The notes below the pieces were generated by a model. That model saw nothing but the letters and a program-made list of their open reading frames with translations. It was not told where the DNA came from and made no database searches. From positions 434,001-498,000 of the forward strand of contig NZ_LR738724.1 of NCBI RefSeq assembly GCF_902702775.1: a stretch of DNA of 64,000 nucleotides. Reading direction: 5' to 3'. Within the stretch, counting starts at the first letter, position 1, and the number at the start of each line of letters is the position of its first letter. Positions 39,795 through 60,575 of this stretch are shown here, piece by piece. Source of the stretch: Streptococcus suis. Its GTDB lineage: Bacteria > Bacillota > Bacilli > Lactobacillales > Streptococcaceae. Made by a program: the position numbers and the translations under genes.

Positions 39795-39853
39795 GGCAGA
39801 TTAGATAAAAAACAAACGAAACATAATACTATGTGAGATTGGTTTTCTATAAT
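39795..39853 (+). promoter_or_regulatory. Island promoter 1: inverted 11-bp half-sites and -10
   Basis: -10 TATAAT is at 39848-39853. Read on the minus strand from 39814 the half-site is TGTTTTTTATC, followed by TAATCTGCCC. The half-site starts exactly 34 bp upstream of the -10, as in the other inverted members. It shares GTTTTTTATCTAA-like sequence with the 42.1 kb copy. It has no TGn extension, unlike its relatives. Confidence 0.5.
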
Positions 39854-39907
39854 TAGAGTAGGCACTGTGTGTGTTGAGTATTAAATGATAGAAAACAAGG
39901 AGAAAAA

Positions 39908-42097
39908 ATGAATAGACAGACTGAAATTTTTTCGTTGAGAAAGAGTAAGGTTGGATTAGCTTCTGTTATGATTGCGCTTATGTGGTTTGGAACAGGTGTT
40001 GGAGCAGTTGCAAAAGCTGATGAAACAGCTATTATGAGTACAGAAATCGAAGCCAAGGTAAGGGAAACGCCACTTGCTATTGAAGAAGAGCTGGTAGAAG
40101 ATTCGGATAGAAAAACAGAAAAGGAAGAAGCTACTGAGGTAGAAGTGAAACCGACGGATGCTAGTCTTCCTGACAGCGAGAAAAAGGCTAAAGAAAGCAT
40201 CTTGAAAATCGATCCTGTCCATGCTGGTGACAAGCAAATTTCAGGTCAGACTATTCCTGGAGGATATGTATTTATTTCTGTGGATGGTGAAGCGATTACT
40301 TCCATTGATAATAGTCTAGAAGCGGATGAAGAAGGTAAGTTTAAACATTCTTTAGAGAAGCCATTGGGCTATAACCAAGTGGTTGAGATTAGTTCATTTC
40401 CGAAAGAATCTGAAGAAGAGTCTGAGGGCGAAGGTGAAGAACTGATTGAAACTGTCAAAACTGAGCGTCATCCAGATGCTTATAAAATTCCGACTGAACG
40501 ACTAGAGAAGACAGAAGATGGGCAACACCAAGTTCTGGTGGAACCAATTTTGGAACATGCCAATAAGGTCATTGGGCATACCTCTGTTAAGGGATTTGTT
40601 TATCTGTCTATAAATGGAAGTTTTGTATCGGATAAGACGCCAATCAATGAAGATGGGCGATTTGAGGTGACTTTTTCTGACAGTTTAGCAGGCTCGAAAT
40701 TTAAGGCGAATGACAAACTAGTTTTATCATTTATTTCTGAGGATAATCGTCCAGTTATTACAAATCATATTGTTATTCCGTGGGAAAAAACAGATAGCCC
40801 TTCACAGATAATGGTGAAGCCACTTTCAAGTGATAATTCCGTTTTGGAGGGGCAGACGGTGCCGTTTGGTCAAGTACAATTATATAATGTTGCTACTTTT
40901 GAATTTTTGGAAGAAGCAATTGCTGATAAGACAGGGAACTTTAAAGTTACCTTACCGAAATTGCAACCAGGAGAGCAATATTACCGCTTGGTGTACAATC
41001 AGCAAGGAGAAGTTGAATCAATTTATATTGACACGGTAGATGGTCCAAGCAAACAATTAGATAAGGCTGTTATTGCCCCCTTGGTGACTTATTTACAAGA
41101 GGTAGATATGGATGAGGCAACTTTTGAAAACCCGATTGTTGTCCCTACTTTGCACAATAAGAAAGATTATATCGTTGGTAGAACTCTGTTTCCACATGCC
41201 TATGTTCGGATGGTTTCATCAATTGAAGGTAAGGTATACCCGCCTGTCCAAGTTGATGAATTAGGTTTTTTCGGTTTTCAAATTCAAGATTTACAACTCC
41301 CCTTTGAAAAAGGAGAGAAAATTCGTTTTGAGATTCTAGATCCAAAGACAAATATTTTGTTGGCCTCAAAAGAGGTAGTCGTTGGTCAATATTTAGAAGA
41401 TGAGGATGAGAGTGACTTGCCATTTCAAGTGGACGAAGTGACAACTGATCACGGCTATATTAGTGGAAAAATTGCCCCAGGAGTGACAGTAGAACTGGTA
41501 TCGACACATAAGGCTGAAGAAATGCTTGCTCGGACAACCGCTGATGCTACAGGTCAGTTTGTATTTGATTTAGGAAATCGAGTATTAAAAGAGGGAGAAA
41601 CTCTGTCATTCAGGGCTTTTGACCAAGATGGGAGTCAGATGGCTTGGGAGGTTGTGACAGTACAAAAAGGAAAAGGGAAGCGGATTAGTAAACCAGCACC
41701 CCTTATCAGAAAAAATGATGCCATCACAGATGAAGTCAAGACAAATGATATGAAGCAACCAAACTCTTCTCAGTCCCCATCAATGAGTTTGTCACGAGAG
41801 AATCAGCAGATGGGACAGCAAATGGATGTTGTTCAGGAGAAGGTGAGCTTGGAGTCAAAGGGTCATCAAGAAAAAATGGGGAGCAAGGAAGAGAAGGTGG
41901 CTCCATCAAAAAAATCTGAAGCCATGGAAGAAGACAAGCAAAGAAAAGAGGATTTACATGCTGTTGTTAAGCAAAGCCAGAGCGTTTCCCTCCCAAAAAC
42001 AGGTGAGAAAAACGGGATGCTTTTAGCCATTCTGGGAGCTGTCAGCTTATTCTTTACAGTTTTGATTATGAGCATCTTAAAGAAGCGTAATGATTAA
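39908..42097 (+). CDS. LPXTG cell-wall protein with tandem Ig-like modules
   Basis: A 729-residue surface protein. The N-terminus has a YSIRK-like signal (FSLRKSKVGLASVMIAL) with probable cleavage near AKA-DE. The acidic stalk runs to about residue 95. About five related beta-sandwich modules of 90-110 residues follow. Each starts with an ISGQT/VIGHT/LEGQT/IVGRT/ISGKI strand and ends in a GxF strand, like bacterial Ig-like Big-type repeats. A Ser/Gln/Lys-rich segment precedes LPKTG at 695-699, a membrane helix and a KKRND tail. Sortase A should anchor it. The ligand is unknown. Confidence 0.85.
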   Translation: MNRQTEIFSLRKSKVGLASVMIALMWFGTGVGAVAKADETAIMSTEIEAKVRETPLAIEEELVEDSDRKTEKEEATEVEVKPTDASLPDSEKKAKESILKIDPVHAGDKQISGQTIPGGYVFISVDGEAITSIDNSLEADEEGKFKHSLEKPLGYNQVVEISSFPKESEEESEGEGEELIETVKTERHPDAYKIPTERLEKTEDGQHQVLVEPILEHANKVIGHTSVKGFVYLSINGSFVSDKTPINEDGRFEVTFSDSLAGSKFKANDKLVLSFISEDNRPVITNHIVIPWEKTDSPSQIMVKPLSSDNSVLEGQTVPFGQVQLYNVATFEFLEEAIADKTGNFKVTLPKLQPGEQYYRLVYNQQGEVESIYIDTVDGPSKQLDKAVIAPLVTYLQEVDMDEATFENPIVVPTLHNKKDYIVGRTLFPHAYVRMVSSIEGKVYPPVQVDELGFFGFQIQDLQLPFEKGEKIRFEILDPKTNILLASKEVVVGQYLEDEDESDLPFQVDEVTTDHGYISGKIAPGVTVELVSTHKAEEMLARTTADATGQFVFDLGNRVLKEGETLSFRAFDQDGSQMAWEVVTVQKGKGKRISKPAPLIRKNDAITDEVKTNDMKQPNSSQSPSMSLSRENQQMGQQMDVVQEKVSLESKGHQEKMGSKEEKVAPSKKSEAMEEDKQRKEDLHAVVKQSQSVSLPKTGEKNGMLLAILGAVSLFFTVLIMSILKKRND

Positions 42098-42141
42098 ATT
42101 CGATTATCGAATAGGTATTAAAATCGAGTTCGTCTTATTGG

Positions 42142-42211
42142 TATTTTTAGGCTATTTTTTATCTATTTTTTGAAAAAAACGTCTTTTCATAAATTGTATT
42201 TTTGTTATAAT
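42142..42211 (+). promoter_or_regulatory. Island promoter 2: three 11-bp half-sites and extended -10
   Basis: Half-sites TATTTTTAGGC, TATTTTTTATC and TATTTTTTG start at 42142, 42153 and 42164. The -10 TATAAT (42206-42211) is preceded by TGT. The gap from TATTTTTTATCTATTTTTTG to the -10 is 33 bp, identical to the copy before the repeat-protein gene at 43098. A CCGTAC-ATTG-GTACGG hairpin lies in the leader at 42216-42231. Confidence 0.68.
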
Positions 42212-42258
42212 AAAACCGTACATTGGTACGGAAAAGAAAAATTTAAAGGAGTATTTTT

Positions 42259-42804
42259 ATGTCAACATTAAAATTAGGTGCAGTAACCTTGTTAGCAGGA
42301 CTTGCATTATTTGGAGGAGCTACTGCACAAGCAGAAACATTTACAGCTGTATCATCTGAAGCAACTGGCTTTAAAACATCAGATCCATGTCGATTTGATG
42401 GGGAGGCAGTAGAAACAAAAAATAGCTGGGGTAATTATACGTTTATCAACCACTATAGACCAGGTGGACGTGGCTCAGAAGGCGAAGTGAACAATGAGCT
42501 CGCAAAACAGATTGAAAACGGAGATTTTACATTGCAACACTCTCCAGCAACTGGCTTTAAAACATCAGATCCATATCGATTTGAAGGTGAGGAAGTAGAA
42601 ACAAAAAATAGTTGGGGTGATTATACATTTATCAACCACTATAGACCAGGTGGACGTGGCTCAGAAGGTGAAGTGAATAATGAGCTTGCAAAACAGATTG
42701 AAAATGGAGATTTTACATTGCAACACTCTCCAGCAGGTGGATTTAAGACGTCAGATCCATGCTTAGTAGATGAGTACGGATTCGGACAAATTAAGATTCT
42801 GTAA
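42259..42804 (+). CDS. Small secreted protein with 62-residue tandem repeats
   Basis: A 181-residue protein I do not recognise. A signal peptide (MSTLKLGAVTLLAGLALFGG, cleavage near AQA-E at 25) precedes two nearly identical 62-residue repeats (residues 35-96 and 97-158) and a third, cut-off copy (159-168). Each repeat contains GFKTSDP, ETKNSWGxYTFINHYRPGG and NNELAKQIENGDFTLQHSP. There is no anchor motif, so it is probably released. Near identity of the copies at DNA level suggests recent duplication. Confidence 0.78.
   Translation: MSTLKLGAVTLLAGLALFGGATAQAETFTAVSSEATGFKTSDPCRFDGEAVETKNSWGNYTFINHYRPGGRGSEGEVNNELAKQIENGDFTLQHSPATGFKTSDPYRFEGEEVETKNSWGDYTFINHYRPGGRGSEGEVNNELAKQIENGDFTLQHSPAGGFKTSDPCLVDEYGFGQIKIL
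42361..42762 (+). repeat. 186-bp tandem repeats inside the secreted-protein gene
   Basis: Copies start at 42361, 42547 and 42733, all exactly 186 bp apart. The third keeps only its first 30 or so bases. Confidence 0.9.
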
Positions 42805-42893
42805 AATTTTAGTATTTACAAATAAGATACGAGGCTATTCTTCTATTTTATTTGTATGGTTTATAATAATTTAAGTCAGAACAATTAAGAGAA

Positions 42894-42957: not shown

Positions 42958-43027
42958 TATTTTTTGGATATTTTTTATCTATTTTTTGCTGTAAGAGGCT
43001 TTTTACGGGATATTTTTTTGATAAAAT
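42958..43027 (+). promoter_or_regulatory. Island promoter 3: three 11-bp half-sites and extended -10
   Basis: Half-sites TATTTTTTGGA, TATTTTTTATC and TATTTTTTG start at 42958, 42969 and 42980. The -10 TAAAAT (43022-43027) is preceded by TGA. The 20-mer starting at 42969 is identical to that at 42153, and the 33-bp gap to the -10 is the same, although the sequence in between differs. Confidence 0.68.
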
Positions 43028-43097: not shown

Positions 43098-46000
43098 ATG
43101 TCAAATAATTTTTTCAAATTTCAAGGCCGTTTTAGGATGTGGAAATCAGGGAAACGATGGCTATATGCAGGTGCCATTGTCACGTTAGCTTCGGTTGGTC
43201 TAGTCGTAGGCGGAAATAAAATTCTAAGACCGGGTGGAAATGCAAATGAGCAACGATTGTCTATTGTTGAGAATAGCAGGATGGAGCAGCAAACCGAGGG
43301 AGAAAATTCAGCATTAAGTGGTCGGAATACTAGGACATTACCGGGTTCAGAAGGAGGAAATCGAAGCCCTCAAAATTCAGAATCGAGCGTTTATCATCAA
43401 GAAAGTGAAAATAGAAATTCTCAATTAGCGGGTGAAGGGGGAACTAGTCAGCAATTAGGACAGAATGGCAATGCTGGAATGCATCGCTTATTAGGTAGTA
43501 GTGGCGATAATAGTGGTCCACTTTCCAGCGATTCTGGCTTAGGGGGTCGTACACCTAATCCGCTTCCAGGTGCTAGTGGTGAAAGTCAAGTGCCGAATTT
43601 AAGTGGTAATAATGGTGACCATCAACTTCCAGGTGCTAGTGGTGAAAGTCAAGTGCCGAATTTAAGTGGTAATAATGGTGACCATCAACTTCCAGGTGCC
43701 AGTGGTGAAAGCCACGTACCGAATTTAAGTGGTAATAATGATGGCCATCAACTTCCAGGTGCCAGTGGTGAAACCCACTTGCCAAATTTAAGCGGCAATA
43801 ATGGCAATCGTCCTCTTCCAGGTGAAAGTGGTGAAACCCACTTGCCAAATTTAAGTGGTAATAATGGTGACCATCAACTTCCAGGTGAAAGTGGTGAAAC
43901 CCAGCTCCCAGACTTAAGAGGTGATAATGGTGACCGTCAACTTCCAGGTGAAAGTGGTGAAGGTCAAGTGCCTAACTTAAGCGGCAATAATGGTGGTCTT
44001 CAACTTCCAGGTGAAAGTGGTGAAACCCAGCTCCCAGGCTTAAGTGGTAATAATGGAGGCCATCAACTTCCCGGTAAAAGCGGCGAAAGCCAAGTGCCTA
44101 ACTTAAGCGGTAATAATGGTGACCGTCCCCTTCCCGGTGCTAGTGGTGAAAGTCAAGTGCCTAACTTAAGCGGTAATAATGGTGACCGTCCCCTTCCCGG
44201 TGCTAGTGGCGAAAGCCAAGCGCCTAACTTAAGCGGCAATAATGGCGATCGTCCTCTTCCAGGTGAAAGTGGTGAAAGCCAAGTGCCGAATTTAAGCGGT
44301 AATACTGGCGATCATCAACTTCCCGGTGCTAGTGGTGAAAGTCAAGTGCCGAATTTAAGCGGTAATAATGGTCATCGTCCTCTTCCAGGTGCTAGTGGCG
44401 AAACCCAGCTCCCAGACTTAAGCGGTAATAATGGTGGTCTTCAACTTCCAGGTGCTAGTGGCGAAAGTCAAGTGCCTAACTTAAGCGGTGATAATGGTGA
44501 CCGTCCCCTTCCAGGCGAAAGTGGTGAAAGTCAAGTGCCTAACTTAAGTGGTAATAATGGAGGCCATCAACTTCCAGGTGCTAGTGGCGAAAGCCAGCTT
44601 CCAGACTTAAGAGGTGATAATAGCGACCGTCAACTTCCAGGTAAAAGTGGTGAAAGCCAAGTGCCTAACTTAAGTGGTGATAATGGCAATCGTCCTCTTC
44701 CAGGCGAAAGTGGCGAAAGTCAAGTGCCTAACTTAAGCGGTGATAATGGTGACCGTCACCTTCCAGGCGAAAGTGGTGAAAGTCACTTTCCAAATTTAAG
44801 CGGTAATAATGGTCATCGTCCTCTTCCAGGCGAAAGTGGTGAAACCCACTTACCAAATTTAAGTGGCAATAATGGTGGCCATCAACTTCCAGGTGAAAGT
44901 GGCGAAAGCCAAGTGCCTAACTTAAGCAGTAATAATGGCGGTCTTCAACTTCCCGGTGAAAGTGGTGAAAGCCAGCTCCCAGACTTAAGCGGCAATAGTG
45001 GTGGCCTTCCTCTTCCAGGCGAAAGTGGTGAAACCCACTTGCCAAATTTAAGTGGCAATAATGGTGGCCATCAACTTCCAGGTGAAAGTGGCGAAAGCCA
45101 AGTGCCTAACTTAAGTGGCAATAATGGCGATCGTCCTCTCCCAGGTTCGGAGGGAGACAATCGTGGACCGAAATTAAGTGAATCTAGTTCAGAAGAGGGA
45201 TGGAAAACAGGCTATGAAATAGGTTATTTAGATGGTTATAGAGGGTTTGGAAAAGCTCCTATTCCAGATCCGGACTATGAGAGAGGTTACTTTGAAGGGC
45301 GACTTGCACGAAAACAGTCCCATCTAGAAGGTCGTAATAGTCATCCACTTCCCGGCAAGGAAGGTGAGACTGTCGTCCCCGGCGATTCCGGCTTAGGTAG
45401 CCGCAATCATAGTCCGCTCCCAGGCGAAAGTGGTGAAAGCCACTTGCCTAACTTAAGCGGTAATAATGGTCATCGTCCACTTCCAGGCGAAAGTGGTGAA
45501 AGCCAGCTCCCAGGCTTAAGCGGCAATAATGGCGATCGTCCTCTTCCAGGTGCTAGCGGCGAAAGCCACGTGCCTAACTTAAGCGGTAATAATGGTTATC
45601 GTCCACTTCCAGGTGAAAGTGGTGAAAACCACTTGCCAAATTTAAGTGGTAATAATGGTGGTCTTCACCTTCCAGGCGAAAGTGGTGAAAGCCACGTGCC
45701 AAATTTAAGTGGTAATAATGGCGATCGTCTTCTTCCAGGTGCTAGTGGCGAATCCCAGCTCCCAGACTTAAGCGGTAATAATGGTGGTATTCAACTTCCC
45801 GGTGAAAGTGGCGAAAGTCAAGTGCCTAACTTAAGCGGTGATAATGGCGGTCATCCACTTCCGGGTGAAAGTGGTGAAAACCACTTGCCGAATTTAAGCG
45901 GTAATAATGGCGGTCATCAACTTCCAGGCGAAAGTGGTGAAAGCCAGCTCCCAGGCTTAAGCGGTGATAATGGTGACCGTCAACTTCCAGGTGCTAGTGG

Positions 46001-46703
46001 TGAAAGCCACGTGCCGAATTTAAGTGGCAATAATGGTGACCGTCAACTTCCAGGTGCTAGTGGTGAAAGTCAAGTGCCGAACTTAAGTGGCAATAATGGT
46101 TATCGTCCACTTCCAGGTGAAAGTGGTGAAAGTCAGCTCCCAGACTTAAGTGGCAATAATTTGGACCGTCAACTTCCAGGTGAAAGTGGTGAAAACCACT
46201 TGCCAAATTTAAGTGGTAATAATGGTGGTCATCAACTTCCAGGTGTTAGTGGCGAAAGCCACGTGCCTAACTTAAGCGGTAACAATGGTCATCGTCCCCT
46301 TCCAGGCGAAAGTGGTGAAAGCCACGTGCCTAACTTAAGCGGTAACAATGGTCATCGTCCTCTTCCAGGCGAAAGTGGTGAAAGCCACGTGCCAAATTTA
46401 AGTGGTAATAATGGCGATCGTCTTCTTCCAGGTGCTAGTGGCGAAAGCCAGCTCCCAGACTTAAGAGGTGATAATGGCGGTCATCAACTTCCGGGTGAAA
46501 GTGGTGAAAAGCACTTGCCTAACTTAAGCGGTAACAATGGTCATCGTCCCCTTCCAGGCGAAAGTGGTGAAACCCAGCTCCCAGACGAAAGTAGTAATGA
46601 TGATTGGCCATCATTTGTTGAACTTGGATATGAGCACGGACGCGTAGATTATAACAACGGTAGTTTTATCGAGTGGGAAATCGGTTGGAGGATTGAACTG
46701 TAA
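43098..46703 (+). CDS. Giant repeat protein with KxYKxGKxW-like signal and 21-residue LPG repeats
   Basis: A 1201-residue protein. The start (RMWKSGKRWLYAGAIVTLAS) resembles a KxYKxGKxW signal used by large serine-rich adhesins. From residue 156 there are 25 full copies of a 21-residue unit, LPG(A/E)SGE(S/T)(Q/H)xPNLSGNNGxxx. A non-repeat linker (about residues 681-773) with GYEIGYLDGY and DYERGYFEGR follows. Then come 18 more full copies and a unique tail (FVELGYEHGRVDYNNG). I see no LPXTG motif and no membrane anchor. Each repeat falls in seven triplets with Gly leading four of them. Function unknown; secreted or loosely attached surface protein. Confidence 0.78.
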   Translation: MSNNFFKFQGRFRMWKSGKRWLYAGAIVTLASVGLVVGGNKILRPGGNANEQRLSIVENSRMEQQTEGENSALSGRNTRTLPGSEGGNRSPQNSESSVYHQESENRNSQLAGEGGTSQQLGQNGNAGMHRLLGSSGDNSGPLSSDSGLGGRTPNPLPGASGESQVPNLSGNNGDHQLPGASGESQVPNLSGNNGDHQLPGASGESHVPNLSGNNDGHQLPGASGETHLPNLSGNNGNRPLPGESGETHLPNLSGNNGDHQLPGESGETQLPDLRGDNGDRQLPGESGEGQVPNLSGNNGGLQLPGESGETQLPGLSGNNGGHQLPGKSGESQVPNLSGNNGDRPLPGASGESQVPNLSGNNGDRPLPGASGESQAPNLSGNNGDRPLPGESGESQVPNLSGNTGDHQLPGASGESQVPNLSGNNGHRPLPGASGETQLPDLSGNNGGLQLPGASGESQVPNLSGDNGDRPLPGESGESQVPNLSGNNGGHQLPGASGESQLPDLRGDNSDRQLPGKSGESQVPNLSGDNGNRPLPGESGESQVPNLSGDNGDRHLPGESGESHFPNLSGNNGHRPLPGESGETHLPNLSGNNGGHQLPGESGESQVPNLSSNNGGLQLPGESGESQLPDLSGNSGGLPLPGESGETHLPNLSGNNGGHQLPGESGESQVPNLSGNNGDRPLPGSEGDNRGPKLSESSSEEGWKTGYEIGYLDGYRGFGKAPIPDPDYERGYFEGRLARKQSHLEGRNSHPLPGKEGETVVPGDSGLGSRNHSPLPGESGESHLPNLSGNNGHRPLPGESGESQLPGLSGNNGDRPLPGASGESHVPNLSGNNGYRPLPGESGENHLPNLSGNNGGLHLPGESGESHVPNLSGNNGDRLLPGASGESQLPDLSGNNGGIQLPGESGESQVPNLSGDNGGHPLPGESGENHLPNLSGNNGGHQLPGESGESQLPGLSGDNGDRQLPGASGESHVPNLSGNNGDRQLPGASGESQVPNLSGNNGYRPLPGESGESQLPDLSGNNLDRQLPGESGENHLPNLSGNNGGHQLPGVSGESHVPNLSGNNGHRPLPGESGESHVPNLSGNNGHRPLPGESGESHVPNLSGNNGDRLLPGASGESQLPDLRGDNGGHQLPGESGEKHLPNLSGNNGHRPLPGESGETQLPDESSNDDWPSFVELGYEHGRVDYNNGSFIEWEIGWRIEL
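43563..45137 (+). repeat. Coding tandem array: 25 x 63 bp
   Basis: Twenty-five in-frame 63-bp units encoding the 21-residue LPG repeat, without indels. Variation is concentrated at residues 4, 8-10, 12 and 19-21. Confidence 0.93.
45417..46550 (+). repeat. Coding tandem array: 18 x 63 bp
   Basis: Eighteen further full units of the same 63-bp repeat, followed by a partial nineteenth copy running into the C-terminal tail. Confidence 0.93.
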
Positions 46704-47730: not shown

Positions 47731-47791
47731 ATCTTATCATAAACGAGAAATTTGTAGGTGGGGACAGACTATTATTTGTATACGCTTTATC
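47731..47791 (-). promoter_or_regulatory. Island promoter 4 (minus strand): inverted half-sites and extended -10
   Basis: On the minus strand the -10 is TGATAAGAT (TAAGAT at 47736-47731). On the plus strand the half-sites TATTATTTGTA and TACGCTTTATC start at 47770 and 47781. The first starts 34 bp upstream of the -10, matching the other inverted members. Confidence 0.5.
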
Positions 47792-48101
47792 TGTAAGATG
47801 ATTTATTTGAAAAATTCAATCGTTGTACGATGTAGTTGGAGAATGAAGGTCTACAAAGTTTAACGTTAATGGCTGTTATTAGAGTAGCCACATAATCACG
47901 CAAAAAAGCTGGATAGAATGATAAGTGTAGGCTAGTATATTGTAAAAATGTCAAGCTGGTTTGGATGGGAAGAAAACTTTGAGAAATGACTTTACTATAA
48001 ATAGTAAACACAGCGAAGTTCATATTATTTCTTACGAATAGCCAAAGGTGTTTGTGTAAGAGATGATACATATCTGTTTTTTAGGTTATATAACCCTACC
48101 C
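47792..48101. other. Intergenic, no gene recognised
   Basis: AT-rich. A 94-codon minus-strand open frame lies here, but it has no ribosome site, family match or coding-like composition. Confidence 0.4.
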
Positions 48102-48160
48102 TAGTTTTTATGTAATATTTGTATATGTTTTGTTTTTTTGACATTTTTTTATGCTATACT
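48102..48160 (+). promoter_or_regulatory. Island promoter 5 (orphan): half-sites and extended -10
   Basis: TAGTTTTTATG at 48102 and TAATATTTGTA at 48113 precede the -10 TATACT (48155-48160, preceded by TGC). TATGTTTTGTT at 48124 continues the 11-bp phase. Alignment at the same offset matches the 42153 motif at 16 of 20 positions. Confidence 0.5.
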
Positions 48161-48166
48161 AACTTC

Positions 48167-48763
48167 ACGGTATCGATTAAGATAGCGAATGATGAAATTG
48201 AAAAGGAGTTATGATGGAATAAGTCATAGCAAAGCGAAATGTAATCTGAAGTGAACGTCATAGTTATTCCAATAATTGTCGGAACTAATTTAATATTTCT
48301 TGCTTACCTTTGGTTAAATTAGCGGCCATGACAATGGAAAGGTACTATGTATCAGATAGATCGTCGTACCGAAAAGAAGTTTTAGAGATAGTCTCAAATG
48401 GAATCATCTGTACAAATCTAGTCTCGTTCAGATGAGGCATACAAGAAAAAGTACATTGACTAGGACTTTTAATGAATCTGACATTGGTTGAAAGAAATTT
48501 TGAAATAACTTTCTCATAGCTTAGAGAGTAATTCTTATCAATCTTATAATTTTTGTCCTTCATAATTTAATAAAACTTTCTTATACACTGAAATTTCATA
48601 ATCAAACAAAACTTTCACAAACTTTTTTAATTCATTAAAATATCGTAGTCCAGTAAATGATTCGCATAAACTCTAAAAACTTCTTTATTTACTATTGCCT
48701 TCTAAAATCTTTTTCAATTCATAATATAAAAACCTGTCTCTTCCTTCCTAGAGGCAGGTTTTT
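48167..48763 (+). ncRNA. Possible structured transcript from orphan promoter 5
   Basis: No long gene lies between the promoter at 48155 and the terminator at 48728-48763. The 5' part can fold: GGAATAA/TTATTCC, ATTGTC/GACAAT and CTAATTTAA/TTAAATTAG are complementary pairs between about 48215 and 48335. Strong ribosome sites precede very short frames. AAAGGAG is followed by ATGATGGAATAA. GGAAAGG is followed by a 12-residue frame, MYQIDRRTEKKF (48346-48384). It may be a regulatory RNA, a peptide gene or a decayed gene. Confidence 0.35.
48728..48763 (+). terminator. Strong intrinsic terminator
   Basis: The 13-bp stem AAAAACCTGTCTC/GAGGCAGGTTTTT with a 10-nt loop has no protein-coding gene immediately upstream. 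Confidence 0.8.
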
Positions 48764-48839
48764 ATATGGCTGTATTTCTGTTGTATGAGAAAGGGAAGGA
48801 GAGTCGGTAAGAATGATTGCATCTCTTTTTTAGGCAATA

Positions 48840-48909
48840 TAAGATTTGTATAAGCTTTTTGTATTTCTTTTGAGTTTTCCCGTTTTGAAGGGGTTTGGTG
48901 TGATATACT
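48840..48909 (+). promoter_or_regulatory. Island promoter 6: three half-sites and extended -10
   Basis: TAAGATTTGTA, TAAGCTTTTTG and TATTTCTTTTG start at 48840, 48851 and 48862. The -10 TATACT (48904-48909) is preceded by TGA. Over 25 nt from 48851 it differs from the copy at 53271 at only a few positions, with identical spacing to the -10. It could drive the M13 peptidase gene with a leader of about 380 nt. Confidence 0.55.
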
Positions 48910-53259: not shown

Positions 53260-53329
53260 TATGTTTTGTCTAAGTATTCTGTGTTTCTTTTGAGTGACTT
53301 TTCTATATATCTTTTTATTGTGATATACT
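53260..53329 (+). promoter_or_regulatory. Island promoter 7 (orphan): three half-sites and extended -10
   Basis: TATGTTTTGTC, TAAGTATTCTG and TGTTTCTTTTG start at 53260, 53271 and 53282. The -10 TATACT (53324-53329) is preceded by TGA. The spacing is identical to the 48.9 kb copy. Confidence 0.55.
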
Positions 53330-53335
53330 ATTGTT

Positions 53336-53386
53336 GTTATCTACAGAGAAGGTAATGTGAAGTTGTTTTATGAGAGCAACTTTTTA
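53336..53386 (+). ncRNA. Possible very short transcript or peptide gene from promoter 7
   Basis: AGAAGG at 53347-53352 precedes a GTG-started frame of 10 codons (MKLFYESNFL). A terminator-like stem (AAGTTGTTTT at 53360-53369 with AGAGCAACTT at 53373-53382, then TTT) overlaps that frame. The transcript would be only about 50 nt unless read-through occurs. This is a candidate, not a proven gene. Confidence 0.28.
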
Positions 53387-53551
53387 TAAACTAAACATAA
53401 TTGATTCAAAGAAAAGTCTGCTATAAGGACTGTGTTGAGCCACTATTTATATGCTGTTGACTGGATATGATATGCCATAGAGTTCTATCTTAGTGGTAGG
53501 AAATGGAGGTCTTCTGCTCCCCTGCCTTTCAAACGGGTCTGGAAGCATAAA

Positions 53552-53590
53552 TAAAACTCACATCACCTTTAGATGGTTATGTGAGTCATA
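53552..53590 (-). terminator. Terminator of the CPBP membrane protein gene
   Basis: On the minus strand CTCACATAACC/GGTGATGTGAG is followed by TTTTATTTATG. Confidence 0.8.
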
Positions 53591-53602: not shown

Positions 53603-54310
53603 TTATATGTATATATGCCCCAGGACTGTTAGCCCGATAATATCTGCTATGGCATGAGCCAAGAAGAACGGAAGCATGTTTTGAGGTTTTATTTTTTGGT
53701 AGAGTAGATGGAAAATAATTCCAACGATTAATCCTAGTCCGATACCAGAAACTAGACCCTGATAGGTATGGAAGCTACAACGGATAATCAGTGAGTAGAG
53801 AAATGCCCACTTAGTATGTTTTGGATTGCCCATCAGACAGATACCAAGGAAGAAAATCTCTTCGTAGAATCCATTTAGCAAGGCATAGAATATTAATGAA
53901 TAGCTGGCTTTATCTACCAAGTGAAACATCGATGGTGTCGCAGGTGCGATAACTTGATGGGACACAAGCTGAAAAACATCCATACAGAGGGCTGCGACAA
54001 TGAAGATGACGATAGTCTGTAGTGGAACCCACGGTGTAAAGAGAATTCGTTTTTTCCACTGTGAAAAGTCAAAATTACGCAGTAGTAAATAGAAGAGGGC
54101 AAGAGCTAACCATACAATTTGAATGGCCACTGCCTTGCAGTTATCTAATGCTGAAAAAGTCAGATTTTCCTGTAGGGTTCTCGTTTGATCTTGTAGTGCC
54201 AGGTATTGGAGTGTGGAGTTGAAAATTCCCTCACCAAATAAAATCAGACTCAGGATGACAATATCAAACCACTTAAGAACAGTCAGTTTTTCAGAATTCA
54301 AGTTGAACAT
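53603..54310 (-). CDS. CPBP (Abi/CAAX-like) family membrane protein
   Basis: A 235-residue polytopic protein with about seven hydrophobic segments. Family motifs are present but altered. The first, EEIFFLG, keeps the Glu pair but lacks the usual following Arg. The second is FHTYQG with a histidine, and the third is AHAIAD. CPBP proteins are intramembrane proteases or bacteriocin-immunity-like proteins. It is divergent from the two-component system, and its minus-strand promoter carries the island half-sites. Confidence 0.78.
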   Translation of the reverse strand: MFNLNSEKLTVLKWFDIVILSLILFGEGIFNSTLQYLALQDQTRTLQENLTFSALDNCKAVAIQIVWLALALFYLLLRNFDFSQWKKRILFTPWVPLQTIVIFIVAALCMDVFQLVSHQVIAPATPSMFHLVDKASYSLIFYALLNGFYEEIFFLGICLMGNPKHTKWAFLYSLIIRCSFHTYQGLVSGIGLGLIVGIIFHLLYQKIKPQNMLPFFLAHAIADIIGLTVLGHIYI

Positions 54311-54344
54311 TAGTAGTCCTTTCTTTATTAATTTAATTTAGTTT

Positions 54345-54405
54345 AGTCTACCAAACAATTCTATACATGTTCTCTTCGAGATGTATTTTTTATCTGTTTT
54401 TTCAA
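54345..54405 (-). promoter_or_regulatory. Island promoter 8 (minus strand): half-sites between CPBP gene and two-component system
   Basis: On the minus strand the extended -10 is TGGTAGACT (TAGACT at 54350-54345). On the plus strand TATTTTTTATC at 54384 and TGTTTTTTCAA at 54395 form the half-site pair. The first T is 34 bp upstream of the -10, as in the other inverted members. The site is also 17 bp from a TATAAC (54421-54426) that could serve the regulator gene, so autoregulation is possible. Confidence 0.55.
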
Positions 54406-54475: not shown

Positions 54476-55120
54476 ATGGCGAAAATTATGGTTGTAGAAG
54501 ATGATATTGTTATCAGTCAAGTAGTTTGTGAGTTTCTAAAGGATCACGGCTATGAAGTGACCCATATTTCCGACGGAAAAATTGCACTTGAAACATTTCG
54601 AGAAGAATCATTTGATTTGATTGTATTGGACATTATGATTCCGTCCATGACAGGATTGGAAGTCCTACAGGAGATTCGTAAGACATCAAAAATTCCAATT
54701 CTTATGTTAACGGCAATGGATGACGAATACACTCAATTGGTTAGCTTCAATCAACTGATTAGTGACTACGTTGTAAAACCTTTTTCGCCGATTATTCTTG
54801 TGAAACGCATTGAAAATATTTTGCGTGGTGAAGGTGATATTATAGAAGCAGCCGACATCCAAATCCATCCGTCCAGTGGAGCGGTTTATATGGCAGAAGA
54901 AGAAGTGCAATTAACGAAAAAAGAATACGAGATTTTACTGTACTTGGCAAAACGACGTGGAAAAATTGTCAATCGTGATCATCTAATGCTGGGAATTTGG
55001 GGCTATACAGAACTGGATAGCCGAGTTTTGGACAATCATATCAAGAATCTACGTAAGAAGTTACCATCTCTTCCTTTACGAACGGTAATTGGTCGAGGTT
55101 ATCAGGTTGAGGAATTCTAA
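54476..55120 (+). CDS. OmpR-family response regulator
   Basis: A 214-residue regulator. The receiver has the acidic pocket E8-D9-D10, phosphoacceptor D52, T79 and K101. The C-terminal winged helix (about residues 125-214) has LTKKEYEILLYLAKRRGKIVNRDHL, then LDNHIKNLRKKL and IGRGYQV. It resembles SaeR/Irr-type regulators in small size and genomic setting among surface proteins; the exact orthologue is not certain. The kinase gene begins 2 bp after the stop. OmpR-type regulators bind direct repeats with an 11-bp period, like those found in this island. Confidence 0.92.
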   Translation: MAKIMVVEDDIVISQVVCEFLKDHGYEVTHISDGKIALETFREESFDLIVLDIMIPSMTGLEVLQEIRKTSKIPILMLTAMDDEYTQLVSFNQLISDYVVKPFSPIILVKRIENILRGEGDIIEAADIQIHPSSGAVYMAEEEVQLTKKEYEILLYLAKRRGKIVNRDHLMLGIWGYTELDSRVLDNHIKNLRKKLPSLPLRTVIGRGYQVEEF

Positions 55121-55122
55121 CA

Positions 55123-56481
55123 ATGGGAATCGCTAGAAAAAACTTCATTGTTGTTACGGTGATGATTACTTTTATTTCTTTGACCTTATTGGGACTATTA
55201 TATTATGCCATGCCGATCTATTATAATCAAGTTCGGAAACAAGAACTCAAAGATGATTATATGAGAGTTGCGATGCAACTGGACGGGAAGCCAGAAGTTG
55301 AAATTTTAGAGAAAATTGATGATTACGATCAGAAAACTCCGAATATCATCATTACTCTATTCTCCGAGTCAAATAAAATTATCTATCCAGATCCCAATGA
55401 CGAAGAGGCCAAAAAGAACGAGGAGGAGTATTTAAAGAAAGGGAATTTTGATGAATTTGGTTCATGGTCAGTAGCCATAGAATCCGCTGAAGGGACGACC
55501 TACTATTTGCTGTTTAATTACGGTTTTCATTCTCTCTCGGATGTCAGTCAGACCCTGGTTACCTTCTATCCATTCATTCTGGTATTGATCATTTTGCTTG
55601 CAGTTTCCTCGGCCTTTGTTTATAGTCGACTGGCCACTCGTAGAATCGCAGCTATTTCTGCAACAACCCGCAAAATGCAATCTTTGGAGCCGGGGATTAA
55701 TTGTTCTGTATCTGGTGTGGATGAAGTAGCAACCCTAGCACAAGATGTCAATAGTCTTTATAGTAAGCTTTTGACCAGTATCAAGGAATTGAAAACGGAG
55801 AACGAGAGGACTTTAGCTCGTGAAAAGGAAAAATCTGACTTTCTCCGTATCACATCTCACGAATTAAAAACTCCGATTGCTAGTGCGCTAGGCTTGATTG
55901 AGGGGATGATTCATAATGTCGGTCCTTTTCAGGATCATGATACTTATTTGAAGAAATGTAGAGAATTGCTGAAGGAACAATCTAATTTGGTTTATTCCAT
56001 TTTAGAAGCAACCAATCTCGAGATGGCATTGAAAGATAGCAAGGGAAGTATCCAATTAGATGAGTTAATTAAGGATTCATTGGCGAGCTATTTTAGCTTA
56101 GCGGAAGTTCGTCCCTATCAGTTTACAGTTGATTTAGCTCCAGTTATTATTGAAGGAAATTCAGTTTATCTACTAAAGGCTATAAAAAATGTTTTGGACA
56201 ATGCATTTCGTTATACAAAAAGTGGAGGTGCTATTCGTCTACAATTAACTGAGCAACAATTAATTATTGAAAATGAAGTCGAGACTGTACTGGATGAGGA
56301 GGAATTGTCGCAAATCTTCAAACCTTTCTATCGTCCAGATTTTAGTCGGCAGAGAAAAGATGGTGGAACAGGGATTGGTTTGTTCATTGTGCAACAAATT
56401 CTTGAAAAACACCAATTTGGATATACATTTTATGCTGCTGATGAAAAGACAATGCGCTTTGTTATTCAATTTGATTCCTAG
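55123..56481 (+). CDS. Sensor histidine kinase
   Basis: A 452-residue membrane kinase. Two transmembrane segments (about residues 8-30 and 146-168) flank an extracytoplasmic sensor of about 115 residues. A HAMP-like linker leads to the H box SHELKTPIASALG with H246. The N box IKNVLDNAFRYTKSGG and the G box DGGTGIGLFIVQQIL follow. It pairs with the response regulator just upstream. The signal is unknown. Confidence 0.92.
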   Translation: MGIARKNFIVVTVMITFISLTLLGLLYYAMPIYYNQVRKQELKDDYMRVAMQLDGKPEVEILEKIDDYDQKTPNIIITLFSESNKIIYPDPNDEEAKKNEEEYLKKGNFDEFGSWSVAIESAEGTTYYLLFNYGFHSLSDVSQTLVTFYPFILVLIILLAVSSAFVYSRLATRRIAAISATTRKMQSLEPGINCSVSGVDEVATLAQDVNSLYSKLLTSIKELKTENERTLAREKEKSDFLRITSHELKTPIASALGLIEGMIHNVGPFQDHDTYLKKCRELLKEQSNLVYSILEATNLEMALKDSKGSIQLDELIKDSLASYFSLAEVRPYQFTVDLAPVIIEGNSVYLLKAIKNVLDNAFRYTKSGGAIRLQLTEQQLIIENEVETVLDEEELSQIFKPFYRPDFSRQRKDGGTGIGLFIVQQILEKHQFGYTFYAADEKTMRFVIQFDS

Positions 56482-56640: not shown

Positions 56641-56710
56641 ATGCAAAAATATAAAAAATACAAAAAAGATAGACCGAAGGCGGGGTGAAAATAGTTGTGA
56701 CTGATATAAT
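56641..56710 (+). promoter_or_regulatory. Island promoter 9: inverted half-sites and extended -10
   Basis: On the minus strand TATCTTTTTTG, TATTTTTTATA and TTTTTGCAT follow each other from 56671 with an 11-bp period. The first T is 34 bp upstream of the -10 TATAAT (56705-56710, preceded by TGA). GGGTGAAAAT at about 56684 is shared with the paralogous promoter near 60.5 kb. Confidence 0.58.
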
Positions 56711-56764: not shown

Positions 56765-57310
56765 ATGATTGTCTTTTGGGTTATTAGTGTTTTTGTATTG
56801 AGATTGTATTTTTTGAAAATTTCGCTAAGAAATGAACAGCGGATTTTAGCAAATGGTGGTTCTGAATACGGAGTGCAAAATACAAAATTACTAACAGTCG
56901 TCCACATTGTCTTTTACTTATCATGTTTGAGTGAGGCAGTGTTAAAACAAGCTAGTTTTGATGGCTTGAGTGTACTTGGACTAGCAGTATTATTCTTTTC
57001 GATGATGATGCTATGCTGGGTTACAAGGATTTTAGGAGATATTTGGACTGTTAAATTGATGTTGGTAAAGAACCATCGATTTATTGATCATTGGCTGTTT
57101 CGAACAGTAAAACATCCAAATTATTTCTTAAACATTATCCCCGAATTGATAGGATTGTCTCTGTTATGCCACGCCAAGTTCAGCTTTATCATCCTATTCC
57201 CAATCTATATGGTTGTACTGTACAGACGGATCCATGAAGAAAATATCTTATTGAAGGAAGTCATTATTCCTAATGGTAAGGTAGAGTCTGCTGGTGAAAT
57301 GTTGGAGTGA
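56765..57310 (+). CDS. ICMT-like membrane methyltransferase, copy 1
   Basis: A 181-residue polytopic protein. I start at ATG 56765 with GGGAAGG upstream. It has about five hydrophobic segments. The C-terminal signature FRTVKHPNYFLNIIPELIG and the later RRIHEENILL match isoprenylcysteine O-methyltransferase-type enzymes, where His/Arg/Glu residues bind S-adenosylmethionine. The substrate is unknown, since this organism has no known prenylated CaaX proteins. A paralogue lies at 60611, and each copy precedes a secreted protein with the same novel domain. Confidence 0.78.
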   Translation: MIVFWVISVFVLRLYFLKISLRNEQRILANGGSEYGVQNTKLLTVVHIVFYLSCLSEAVLKQASFDGLSVLGLAVLFFSMMMLCWVTRILGDIWTVKLMLVKNHRFIDHWLFRTVKHPNYFLNIIPELIGLSLLCHAKFSFIILFPIYMVVLYRRIHEENILLKEVIIPNGKVESAGEMLE

Positions 57311-57505
57311 AGTGTGCGGAGAGAGATACAAAGATAGAACTCTACGAGAAATCATTCTAGTGGTTACATTAATTTAGTTTAAATATCGTTTTTTATGAAT
57401 TACTACTGACCCAAGGAAGGCTGTGCATTTAGAATAGTAGGGTAATTTCCAGTTTGAAAACAGGTATTTTATAAAGATTATGCGTTTTTTTAAAAGGAGC
57501 AAATT

Positions 57506-60391
57506 ATGAGCAAGCAAAAAGTAATATCAGGCTTATTATTAAGTACAACGGTATTGGGTGGTTTATTACTTTATCCAACATCATTGGTCAAAGCAGAAGG
57601 GACAGAGCTTACAGAAGTAGCTGTGACCGAAGCGCCAAAGTCAAATAGTGAAGAGATTTCCGTGACATCTAAAAATAGTCCATCTCCAGTATTGGAGGAA
57701 GCGGTTATGGTTGCAGATAATAATCCTTCAACTAATGCTGAGTCTTCTTTGAAAGAAGAGGGAGATAAAAAAGAAAATGTAGATTTGGAACTAGTTTCAA
57801 ATGAAGAGCTAGTTTCATTATCAGAATCGAAAAACGTAGTAGAGGGGGAGGAGGCCTCCCTAAATGATGAGGAAGGATTAATTCAGGGGACAAATTTTAG
57901 CGGTAATGATCAAGGTGATTATTATAAAAAATCAGTATCAATTGAGCCTGTAAAGGTGGATAATAATGAGGCTACATGGAAGGTGACATTCGATACTAAG
58001 AATTGGTCTTTCGACCGAGGACGCGGGGGATATTATTTTATTCTTCCTAAGAGTTTGCAAGTGACAAAGATTGTAGAGGGGGAAAAAACAGATATATTAG
58101 ATAAATTCCCTAAAATGGTCCAAGACTTGGACAACTCATCCTCTAATACTCATCGTTTTTTTAGTAAAGAAGATCGGATAGAAGGAGAGCGTAGTTTTAA
58201 CGCACAGTGGGAATGGTCAGTAGGAAATGTGAGAGGGAAGTTATCTGATTGGAGAAATGAAAGTTCCAAGATCTATTTTCTTAAAGCTCCGTCAAGCCAT
58301 ACAGATAAAGTGACCTACGAATTGACAGCTAAAATTGAGAATACAAATGTAAAGACTCTTCCTGTCATCGCTGTTATGAAATATTTCGGTTTCTTCTCAG
58401 ATGTTGTATCTGCTGCTGGAATAAGAATGGTAGTACCAGACAATGCTCCTGAGGTAGATAAGAAATCAGAAGTCCCAACGTTGGAACCGAAAACAATAGA
58501 TAAGGTTTCTATCACTTTTAAGGATGTAGATTCTTTGGCAGATGCAACTTATTACTTTTATAAAGGCTCGTATTCTGTAACTGTTCCTGTAGGTTCACTA
58601 TTAAAAGTTGCATTGCCAAAAATAGTCAAAAAACCGACTAATGATACCCCAAAAGGAACATTAGTTATTCCTAAAGGATATAAATTGGAGGGGTGGAAAG
58701 TAGATGGCAGCAATAAAACGATTCTTGAAACAGATGCCATAACTTCTTCGCTGACAGTAGTCCCTATTGTCAAGAAGATTGAAGAATTTAAACCCGAAAC
58801 ACCTAAATCACCATCTATTCCAGAAAAACCTATGGTTGATCCGAAGGTATCGGAAACAGAGAAGCCTGGTACACCAGAACAACCGAAGAAGCCTTCTGTA
58901 CCAGAACAGCCGGAAGCACCAGCGCCAAGTCCATCTCCTGAAAGTCCTAAGAAAGAAGACATGGCGCCAAATAAAACCAAAGATGAGATCTATGAGCCAA
59001 TTGTCCAAACAGACAAATGGGTGGTTTATCCTGTAGGAACTTCGAAGGAAGAAGCAGAGAAGAAAATTCTTGATGCAGTAATGGTTCCTAAAGAAGCAGG
59101 AGAAACTAAAAAAGAAATCGTTGGGGACGTTCCATTGGCAGCAGGGCAATACGGAGTAAATGTAAAGGTCATTTACGATGATAAGTCGTACGATGTCACT
59201 TTAGTTGATGTTCATGTGACATCTAACCAGACTGACAAACCGAATGAAGATATGCCTCGAAGTCCAGAGCAACCTCGTATGTCTGAAATGCCAAAGGTTG
59301 AACCAAAAGTAGAAGAAATGCAGCCGAAGGTCATGCCACAAAGTCCAGAAATGCCATCTCCTGCTCCAGAACCAGAACAACCTAAAACTCCAGAAGTACC
59401 AGATATGTCACAGCCAGAAGTTCCTAAGAGCGAAACACCTAAAATGGAACAACCAGAGGTAGTGCCACCGACTTCAGAGTCAGAGCAACCGCAAGCTCCT
59501 ATGAAACCAGAGACTTCATCTCCAGAGGGACCAGAGATGCCTCGTGTACCAGAAATGCCAGACACACCAGCACCAAGTCCAGCACCTGAAAGTCCAAAGA
59601 AAGAAGAAATGGTGCCCAATAAGACTAAGGATGAACTTTATGAACCGATTGTTTCAATGGTTGACTGGGTAGCGTATCCAGTAGGAACCTCAAAAGAAGT
59701 TGCGGAGAAAAAAATCTTAGATGCTGTCACAGTTCCTCAAGAAGCTGGTCCAATTACAAAAGAAATTGTTGGAGAAGTTCCGCTAGTAGAAGGGAAATAT
59801 GGGGTAAATGTGAAGGTCATCTATGATGATCATTCGTATGATATTGCTCTGGTAGATGTTAAAGTTACTAACGAGAAGTCACATATGGACATGCCACAGC
59901 CAGAAGTTCCTAAGAAGGAACAACCAGAGATGGTTATTCCTGAGGAGAAAATGCCTAAGGTAGATAATCCTAAACAAGATACACCAAAGTTAGAACAACC
60001 AAAAGTAGAGACTCCGAAAGAAGAAGCTCCGAAAAAAGAGATTCCACAAACTGAAACTCCTAAGATTGAGGTTCCTAAAGAATCTGAAAAAGAAAAATCT
60101 GATATTCAGAAAATGGCTAAGCCAAAACAAGAAGATCAGATGGCAAAAGAATCTCAAAAAACGGATAATCCTTCTGAGAAGATGAAACCCGAGTCACAAG
60201 GGTCAAAAACAACATCACCAGCGGTCAAACAGCCAATGGATGAAATGTCAGATGGTAAGAAACCTCAGAAGAGCAAAGAGACTTTGCCAAAGACTGGAGA
60301 AGCAGGCGGTAGCTTAACTTGGTTAGGAGCAGCCCTGGCCACTCTTTCAACTTTTGTGTATGTATTTAAAAACAAAAAGAAAGAAGAGTAA
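57506..60391 (+). CDS. LPXTG surface protein with novel N-terminal domain, Rib-like modules and proline-rich stalk
   Basis: A 961-residue protein. The signal peptide ends near VKA-EG (about 31) and is followed by an acidic segment. Residues about 135-311 form a domain shared with the protein at 61185 (GGYYFILP, TDILDKF, FNAQWEWS, KIYF, SAAGIRMVVP). Two nearly identical Rib/alpha-like modules (about 494-573 and 712-790, each with YPVGTSKEEAEKKILDAV and YGVNVKVIYDD) alternate with Pro-rich stretches. LPKTG is at 927-931. It is a candidate adhesin anchored by sortase A. The 195-bp gap after the methyltransferase gene has weak TTGAAA/GATTAT promoter elements at 57454-57481. Confidence 0.85.
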   Translation: MSKQKVISGLLLSTTVLGGLLLYPTSLVKAEGTELTEVAVTEAPKSNSEEISVTSKNSPSPVLEEAVMVADNNPSTNAESSLKEEGDKKENVDLELVSNEELVSLSESKNVVEGEEASLNDEEGLIQGTNFSGNDQGDYYKKSVSIEPVKVDNNEATWKVTFDTKNWSFDRGRGGYYFILPKSLQVTKIVEGEKTDILDKFPKMVQDLDNSSSNTHRFFSKEDRIEGERSFNAQWEWSVGNVRGKLSDWRNESSKIYFLKAPSSHTDKVTYELTAKIENTNVKTLPVIAVMKYFGFFSDVVSAAGIRMVVPDNAPEVDKKSEVPTLEPKTIDKVSITFKDVDSLADATYYFYKGSYSVTVPVGSLLKVALPKIVKKPTNDTPKGTLVIPKGYKLEGWKVDGSNKTILETDAITSSLTVVPIVKKIEEFKPETPKSPSIPEKPMVDPKVSETEKPGTPEQPKKPSVPEQPEAPAPSPSPESPKKEDMAPNKTKDEIYEPIVQTDKWVVYPVGTSKEEAEKKILDAVMVPKEAGETKKEIVGDVPLAAGQYGVNVKVIYDDKSYDVTLVDVHVTSNQTDKPNEDMPRSPEQPRMSEMPKVEPKVEEMQPKVMPQSPEMPSPAPEPEQPKTPEVPDMSQPEVPKSETPKMEQPEVVPPTSESEQPQAPMKPETSSPEGPEMPRVPEMPDTPAPSPAPESPKKEEMVPNKTKDELYEPIVSMVDWVAYPVGTSKEVAEKKILDAVTVPQEAGPITKEIVGEVPLVEGKYGVNVKVIYDDHSYDIALVDVKVTNEKSHMDMPQPEVPKKEQPEMVIPEEKMPKVDNPKQDTPKLEQPKVETPKEEAPKKEIPQTETPKIEVPKESEKEKSDIQKMAKPKQEDQMAKESQKTDNPSEKMKPESQGSKTTSPAVKQPMDEMSDGKKPQKSKETLPKTGEAGGSLTWLGAALATLSTFVYVFKNKKKEE

Positions 60392-60436
60392 TTTCTTTTA
60401 AATTAGCAATCGTAGCTACCAAGTATGAAAATCATA

Positions 60437-60480
60437 AAAAATTCCTGAGTTCGAATGTACTGACTCAGGAATTTTTTTGA
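60437..60480 (+). terminator. Terminator after the large LPXTG gene
   Basis: The perfect 14-bp stem AAAAATTCCTGAGT/ACTCAGGAATTTTT is followed by TTGATTT. Confidence 0.88.
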
Positions 60481-60513
60481 TTTGGCACCAGCTAGGGTCA
60501 CTCCACTAGTCAA

Positions 60514-60575
60514 CCAACAAAAATAAATAAAAAATAGAACATGGGCAGGGTGAAAATGGATTGACTTGATATACT
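60514..60575 (+). promoter_or_regulatory. Island promoter 10: inverted half-sites and extended -10
   Basis: On the minus strand TATTTTTTATT and TATTTTTGTTG start at 60536 and 60525. The first T is 34 bp upstream of the -10 TATACT (60570-60575, preceded by TGA). The inverted 19-mer matches the 42153 motif at 17-18 positions. Confidence 0.6.

Follow-up and report, generated by a model that had tools for sequence, protein, structure and literature searches.

What controls the genes for surface proteins that are gathered in one island of the Streptococcus suis genome? The preliminary description of this DNA, a stretch of 64,000 nucleotides (the window), proposed that ten promoters of the island share tandem half-sites at a fixed distance from the -10 element and form a locally encoded surface-protein regulon, controlled by the OmpR-type two-component pair at 54476-56481. 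Direct repeats with an 11-bp period, lying upstream of promoters whose -35 is poor, are bound by PhoB, OmpR, and PhoP, and PhoP boxes occur in both orientations. The window shares the 11-bp repeats and the poor -35 elements with these systems and differs from them in half-site sequence and in having two mirror-image geometries with rigid spacing. We predict, with considerable confidence, that the window's response regulator, a VncR/CbpR/BgrR-like protein acting on envelope-gene promoters, has the repeat as its operator. The site, its spacing, its co-occurrence with the regulator, and the genes behind it were established by computation.

The response regulator (54476..55120, + strand) is of the OmpR/PhoB type, with a receiver (PF00072) and a winged-helix domain (Trans_reg_C, PF00486), both above cut-off; the sensor histidine kinase follows at 55123..56481 (+; PF00512 and PF02518). 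In its best register the half-site reads ATCTRTTTTTT, repeated in tandem every 11 bp, and aligned promoters show two strong half-sites and two weaker ones, all in register at this spacing. The C at the third half-site position ranks with the most conserved columns (2.12 and 1.85 bits). The exact string TATTTTTTATCTNTTTTT occurs three times in the 2.19-Mb genome, each time within the island. A further match with one mismatch, at 126461, was dropped because no -10 was evident at either offset by reading.

Five sites are strong, and they precede genes 42259, 43098, 53603, 56765, and 60611. Two are in forward orientation, with 34 nt between operator and -10. At 42150..42211 (+) the operator (42150-42171; 24.8 bits) and the extended -10 TGTTATAAT (hexamer 42206-42211) precede a gene for a small secreted protein with two repeats, identified by reading (42259..42804, +); at 42966..43027 (+) the operator (42966-42987; 17.0 bits) and the -10 TGATAAAAT (43022-43027) precede a gene for a 1,201-aa repeat protein with a KxYKxGKxW-type signal, found by sequence search (43098..46703, +). 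Copies 42153 and 42969 share the same 20 nt, and in each case a gap of 33 nt separates the copy from its -10 (42206 and 43022). The other three are inverted, with a 30-nt gap. The strongest (54345..54402, - strand; operator 54381-54402, -10 TGGTAGACT at 54350-54345; 49.0 bits under the full model, E 9.2e-9 with model R1 in its own genome) precedes a gene of the CPBP (Rce1-like) membrane protease family (53603..54310, -; PF02517). The remaining two precede genes for ICMT-like membrane proteins: 56653..56710 (+; operator 56653-56674, -10 TGATATAAT at 56705-56710; 33.1 bits, R1 E 1.2e-4) lies before 56765..57310 (+; PF04140), and 60518..60575 (+; operator 60518-60539, -10 TGATATACT at 60570-60575; 31.2 bits, R1 E 2.2e-4) before 60611..61162 (+), recognised by reading. 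Both ICMT-like genes match the same locus, L078, by BLAST.

The third exact copy of the string, at 54384, had been described only as the inverted site of gene 53603, yet the response-regulator gene, too, has it immediately upstream. Toward that gene no -10 stands at gap 34 from operator 54381, so that self-control of 54476 is at most a possibility in the S. suis genome.

The other five sites are weak (39908, 46968, 48155, 48904, and 53324). An inverted site at 39796..39853 (+; -10 TATAAT at 39848-39853, without TG) precedes the gene for a YSIRK/LPXTG surface protein recognised by sequence searches (39908..42097, +); it scores 4.8 bits under the full model, in which no background match exceeds 4, and R1 has no match there at E<=0.01. 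A second inverted site, at 47731..47788 (-; -10 TGATAAGAT at 47736-47731), stands before the secreted-protein gene 46968 and scores -6.9 against a background maximum of -8.2. The three forward sites are 48099..48160 (+; -10 TGCTATACT at 48155-48160; score -0.9), 48848..48909 (+; -10 TGATATACT at 48904-48909; -0.5), about 390 nt before pepO, and 53268..53329 (+; -10 TGATATACT at 53324-53329; 1.5). No clear ORF follows the first or the last of these. Searched against 40 relatives, the DNA behind 53324 gave no match and that behind 48155 only two short ones, both in one genome.

The promoter details that had been proposed held up on recounting. TGn precedes the -10 in nine of ten (the exception being 39848), and there is no good -35, the best match being 4/6 in one promoter and no more than 3/6 in any of the remaining nine. 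In three of the five forward promoters, 8 or more of 11 positions fit a forward half-site at -64; in all five inverted ones, 8 to 11 of 11 fit an inverted half-site whose first T is at -34. Copies 48851 and 53271 have 21 of 25 positions in common.

A matrix trained on other genomes only was applied at the proposed offsets to the 190 extended -10s (TGnTAnnnT) of the window and to 1,258 background ones from 400 kb of the S. suis genome. Eight of the ten promoters scored above the entire background, the other two falling below one background site. Forward scores above -1 at gap 34 were reached by five window -10s, exactly the five forward promoters, and by none of the 1,258 (nor by any of a T-rich subset of 159); inverted scores above -7 at gap 30 were reached by four, all among the proposed promoters, and again by no background site. 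The fifth inverted promoter, 39848, scored -3.0 at its fixed offset. Among 5,000 shuffles of the same segments, the weak scores were reached 13, 18, 4, 1, and 0 times (48155, 48904, 53324, 39848, and 47736 on the minus strand, respectively). By matrix, background, and shuffle scores, the fixed-offset repeats at the ten promoters are thus confirmed as a set beyond chance.

That the five weak sites are chance matches, leaving only the strong five as operators, is nevertheless a serious contender, which we rate only a little short of even. Their scores lie near or below zero, and two have no gene behind them. When gaps of 33 to 35 were allowed, one of the 1,258 background sites reached 48155 and 48904, and when any TAnnnT was taken as a -10, 4 of 14,535 background sites exceeded -1 in the forward class and the window added one further site per class (43011, and 48068 on the minus strand). 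Without the -10, the operator matrix gave a background match of 16.3, near the values of 60518 (16.7) and 42966 (17.0), and two additional window matches above 8 (52889 and 58617). Four sites (46968, 48155, 48904, and 53324) escaped a free scan that used a cut-off, and all were recovered by scoring at fixed offsets; 46968 was also missed by R1 at E<=0.01. Against chance, the weak sites outrank the background extended -10s at the exact offsets, and a strong inverted site stands before a pepO relative (68%) in another genome, G243. A sigma-70 scan of 52.8-61.3 kb was uninformative (33 sites, against 26.1 with a standard deviation of 5.5 in shuffles), and the single Rfam match in 38-64 kb, a snoRNA at E=0.1, lay below the cut-off.

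Evidence on the protein that reads the repeat came from 284 Streptococcus genomes, 70 with a close relative of response regulator 54476 and 214 without. Sites with at most one mismatch were present in 54 of the 70 and in none of the 214 (Fisher p=4e-44, not corrected for kinship), and 46 of the 59 such sites lay near the regulator gene. The 16 regulator-bearing genomes without a site at this level include two (G173 and G221) that have none even at two mismatches. With two mismatches allowed, 23 of the 214 regulator-less genomes had matches, 28 sites against 18 for a backward control in the same genomes, so that most, perhaps not all, of these matches are background; in the S. suis genome itself the figures were four and two. 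Model R1 at E<=0.01 found matches in 69 of the 70 regulator-bearing genomes and in 14 of the 214 others. All 76 matches at E<=2.6e-5 were in the former group, and two genomes of the latter (G253 and G262) had matches at 8e-5.

Sites near the regulator occur in at least four arrangements: in a divergent spacer, before a vex-like operon 3.6 kb away, immediately before the regulator, and about 700 bp before its paralogue. Of 43 non-redundant sites in other species, 27 are followed on their inverted side by a -10 at a gap of exactly 30. Because the same sequence adjoins one regulator-gene family across the genus, the repeat is very probably the landing site of this regulator, and co-occurrence, varied near-regulator sites, rigid spacing, and the surface-protein genes behind distant sites together support control of the promoters by the pair.

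Three other assignments are less probable. A paralogous regulator at 1,513,866-1,514,510 is 66% identical to 54476, and an inverted site of its own lies about 700 bp from it; that the sites belong to it, or to both regulators, with the island pair not the main controller, is improbable, given that the exact string clusters in the island beside 54476 and that most operator-bearing genomes carry a single such regulator gene (73 copies in 70 genomes). We consider it highly unlikely that some other regulator, always inherited with the pair, binds the sites: co-occurrence alone cannot name the protein, yet the neighbourhoods vary by species (CPBP, vex-like, and others), the two-component pair is what the loci viewed have in common, and the recognition region of the regulator is nearly invariant. 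Least credible is that the repeats, T-rich and upstream of promoters, are UP-like T-tracts that stimulate polymerase directly, as the conserved third-position C and the way repeat presence tracks the regulator gene speak against it.

Regulator 54476, which we favour as the protein that binds the repeat, appears to resemble the streptococcal VncR/CbpR/BgrR group. Its best NCBIfam match, VanR-B, reached 162 bits against a cut-off of 480, short of membership, and relatives of the kinase in named genomes came down to a single distant locus. The regulator is about 63% identical to those encoded behind vex-like operons at two loci (L151 and L152), where a permease and ABC-ATPase operon (by Pfam for L151) precedes the regulator and the best-scoring sites stand in front. 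The operator is shared with these vex-like loci. VncRS proper has vex123 directly upstream; beside the pair of the window there are no vex-like genes, the upstream neighbour being a CPBP gene and the downstream one an ICMT-like gene. As in CbpRS of S. pneumoniae (TCS06, HK06/RR06), the pair adjoins a surface-protein gene, here one gene behind the kinase (57506..60391, +); its product is, unlike the pneumococcal neighbour, an LPXTG protein with a SadP/Fhb-like domain (PDB SadP chain, E 3.1e-37), and more targets are predicted here. The work of Ma and Zhang (2007) on RR06 may already contain a portion of the site, for a single promoter. BgrRS of S. agalactiae (Sak188/Sak189) likewise lies beside a surface-protein gene, bac. 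In the available portions of the source, bac is the controlled gene named and no operator is given; Sak189/BgrR is reported to activate bac and to be needed for its expression, RR06 is reported to activate cbpA, whose product binds factor H, the bac product binds IgA and factor H, and a figure is said to underline bases identical between the two promoters (PMC2856668). VncS and VncR are reported to activate their own module (PMC11502775; PMC11034029), a different VncR repeat, TGTCC/AT, was proposed in a capsule promoter in 2019 (PMC6781885), and according to a study of 2024 no motif is currently known for CbpR or VncR (PMC11034029). That statement, together with searches of open-licence papers, suggests that the operator has not been published.

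The proposed regulon is supported as regards control by the pair and has to be widened in two respects, being neither only local nor made up only of surface proteins. R1 gave six matches in the S. suis genome, three in the island, one at the paralogous two-component locus, and two before PrsW-family protease genes. Among the 13 best regulator-distant sites of other species, 12 stand before genes whose products belong to the envelope or look secreted, and seven of these genes encode surface proteins; at two distant sites (L075 and L082) open frames of 429 and 129 aa appear once all start codons are allowed. A shorter SadP/Fhb-like open frame (61185..62291, +; PDB SadP chain, E 4.9e-29) begins 22 nt behind the ICMT-like gene 60611-61162.

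In the mechanism that we propose, the regulator would bind head to tail to ATCTRTTTTTT half-sites spaced by 11 bp, at promoters with an extended -10, no good -35, and one of two fixed geometries. In the inverted geometry the strong pair would end 30 nt before the -10, with two weaker half-sites filling the -35 region; in the forward one the pair would end 34 nt before it. Envelope genes would most likely be switched on rather than repressed, and we infer both what the kinase does and that 54476, of the two paralogous regulators, is the one that acts. Predicted targets are the surface proteins, CPBP protease, and ICMT-like proteins of the island and the PrsW-family proteases elsewhere in the genome. 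Tentatively, and as a possibility that we hold with less than even confidence, one regulator family across Streptococcus may use a promoter code of two geometries, spaced in steps of roughly a helical turn, and may control surface adhesins jointly with the intramembrane proteases (CPBP and PrsW), ICMT-like methyltransferases, and PepO that mature, trim, or sense them.

The predicted operator gives a precise, testable site for a regulator group that governs host-contact proteins in several streptococci, and would let regulons be read from genomes. In S. suis it would connect a two-component pair with the SadP/Fhb-like surface proteins, and bring intramembrane proteases and ICMT-like proteins into the same programme as the surface proteins.

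The window (434001-498000) is part of a 2,189,829-base genome, and its surface island carries an OmpR-type regulator and its kinase, a CPBP family gene, PepO, and genes for LPXTG and small secreted proteins. It also has two ICMT-like genes, and behind each of them comes a gene for a protein with a SadP/Fhb-like domain. Proteins 57506-60391 and 61185-62291 each contain a domain resembling S. suis SadP/Fhb; 61185-62291 is the shorter open frame, and no sorting signal was seen in it. The named close relatives of 57506 came nearly all from Streptococcus suis, and the genome was assigned to this species on that basis. The 1,201-aa protein at 43098-46703 is built from repeats of the LPGESGESQVPNLSGNNG type and has a KxYKxGKxW-type signal. 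The promoter and repeat statements of the preliminary description were all borne out by a script check; exact TATTTTTTATCTNTTTTT occurs three times genome-wide, at window positions 42153, 42969, and 54384, the last in the spacer that separates the CPBP gene from the regulator and upstream of each.

The ATCTGTTTTTT-ATCTGTTTTTT repeat recurs upstream of relatives of the regulator (54476). At most 260 nt from the regulator, it was present with two or fewer mismatches in 17 of 29 loci of other genomes and with three in two more; some loci lacking it inside 260 nt carry it at a greater distance. Searching 284 Streptococcus genomes for ATCTRTTTTTTATCTRTTTTTT with up to two mismatches returned 137 sites, and relatives of the regulator at E≤1e-75 were found in 70 genomes (73 copies are listed, including a second copy in G085 at 3.9e-63). 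All 59 sites with 0-1 mismatch fell in regulator-bearing genomes, 46 of them near the regulator, in the range from 5.5 kb upstream to 3 kb downstream of it. Such sites occurred in 54 of the 70 regulator-bearing genomes versus 0 of the 214 others (Fisher p=4e-44, kinship not corrected). Fifty of the 78 sites with exactly two mismatches were also in regulator-bearing genomes, and the backward control gave 30 sites (12 in regulator-bearing and 18 in other genomes) against 109 and 28 for the real motif. Simple inheritance of one spacer is argued against because the operator contexts differ, the sites lying in a divergent spacer, ~3.6 kb off before a vex-like operon, immediately upstream of the regulator, or ~700 bp off beside a paralogue. 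The last (L088, G000:C1:1509000-1520000) is a paralogous two-component pair with a 66% identical regulator and an inverted site, whose promoter faces ~1.5 kb without a same-strand ORF of at least 60 aa. L068 and similar loci, from genomes without the regulator, have an operator-like site with a -10 ~20 nt off, not 30; on reading, the L068-type site precedes a stretch resembling that before a PrsW-family gene of the S. suis genome.

Alignment of 43 non-redundant sites from other genomes revealed a fixed geometry on the inverted side, where 27 of 43 sites had their best -10 at a gap of exactly 30 nt, usually preceded by TGn, and any other gap was shared by at most three. In the aligned promoters, AAAAAACAGAT-AAAAAACAGAT is followed at successive 11-bp steps by AGA and TAGA, and finally by TTTGnTAnAAT. 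These make up a strong pair of half-sites and a weak pair, the latter within the -35 region. The forward -10 was looser (20 of 43 sites had a good one at some gap between 20 and 54, and in eight of these it fell at 32-35), and both strong forward sites of the window have gap 34. On the regulator-facing side, the -10 stood at gap 44 in one locus (L027) and 54 in two (L021, L022); compared with 34, it is farther out by roughly one and two helical turns. At two sites of G179 (L082, L083), the match to R1, a model derived from 26 inverted promoters found in other genomes, spans 70-71 nt versus 60, placing the -10 about one turn further.

Ten promoters had been claimed for the island, and they were scored with a matrix trained without the S. 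suis genome. At gap 34, the forward claims scored 24.8 (42206), 17.0 (43022), 1.5 (53324), -0.5 (48904), and -0.9 (48155), and none of the window's other extended -10s (190 in all) came above -5; among 1,258 extended -10s of the background, none exceeded -1 and one exceeded -5. The three strong inverted claims (54350-, 56705, 60570) gave scores of 40.7, 27.3, and 21.8, 47736- scored -6.9, and 39848, without TG, scored -3.0; 0/1,258 background sites exceeded -7 and one exceeded -12, with two non-claim window sites between these values. All ten claims therefore stand out at the fixed offsets, five strongly and five weakly. Widening the gaps to 33-35 let one background site equal or beat 48155 and 48904, and when any TAnnnT was accepted as the -10, 4 of 14,535 sites in the background passed -1 in the forward test and none passed -7 in the inverted one, with one window non-claim gained per class. 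The weak five were picked out in a deliberate search by a reader, and two are not followed by a gene; we regard them as about equally apt to be real sites or chance matches. The stretches after two predicted weak promoters (48155-48780, 53324-53560) have no clear ORF, and a search of 40 other genomes matched them only by two short hits in G297; small RNAs, leaders, or decayed genes are possibilities. A possible eleventh site is at 52930 (+), in the interval separating 51412-52821 from 53324, where an extended -10 is preceded by a weak match of the inverted type (-9.1).

Under strict filters and E≤0.01, R1, which is unable to detect forward sites, matched the S. suis genome six times: at window 54343, 56653, and 60519, once at the paralogous pair, and twice upstream of PrsW-family intramembrane protease genes; 39908 and 46968 were not reported. 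Matches at this cut-off occurred in 69/70 regulator-bearing genomes versus 14/214 others, and all 76 matches at E≤2.6e-5 were in regulator-bearing genomes.

The genes behind the complete set of 13 sites with 0-1 mismatch lying away from any regulator encode seven surface proteins (marked by a YSIRK-type signal or a cell-wall anchor-like tail), three proteins with a signal-like N-terminus, and one each of a ZnuA-type lipoprotein, an ICMT-like protein, and a lactonase-like protein; on reading, 12 of the 13 are envelope or secreted. For scale, 9 of 321 background ORFs of at least 100 aa had an LPXTG signal. The surface protein at one L083 site is 40% identical to 43098 over 1,182 aa of repetitive sequence. 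Seventeen further sites, hand-chosen and not exhaustive (four two-mismatch sites of G133 and 13 R1 matches, including one that lies 1.8 kb from a regulator), precede genes for DUF4300 lipoproteins (four), PrsW (three), CPBP, SadP-like, and YSIRK-type signal proteins (two each), and ICMT, PepO, a histidine-triad protein, and SecA (one each). The 30 genes were named by family library (17), BLAST (7), or reading (6).

Kinase 55123 likely sets the state of the regulator, which would bind the direct repeats in a head-to-tail arrangement and probably bring polymerase to promoters with an extended -10 and a poor -35. ELDSRVLDNH in the DNA-binding domain, kept in nearly all of 31 sequences, fits a constant operator. 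The active state should not be presumed, because the unphosphorylated form is said to activate cbpA in pneumococcus (PMC13251385).

Regulators of this kind are known to activate the adjoining surface-protein genes cbpA and bac (PMC2856668, PMC4457541), and the CbpR and VncR motifs were "currently unknown" as of 2024 (PMC11034029). A 2019 paper proposed a VncR repeat, TGTCC/AT, in a capsule promoter (PMC6781885); it bears no resemblance to the operator found here. As far as the literature was searched, the novel elements are an operator common to the genus, the fixed geometries of this operator, and a broader set of targets, and we classify the system as a predicted OmpR-type direct-repeat regulon.
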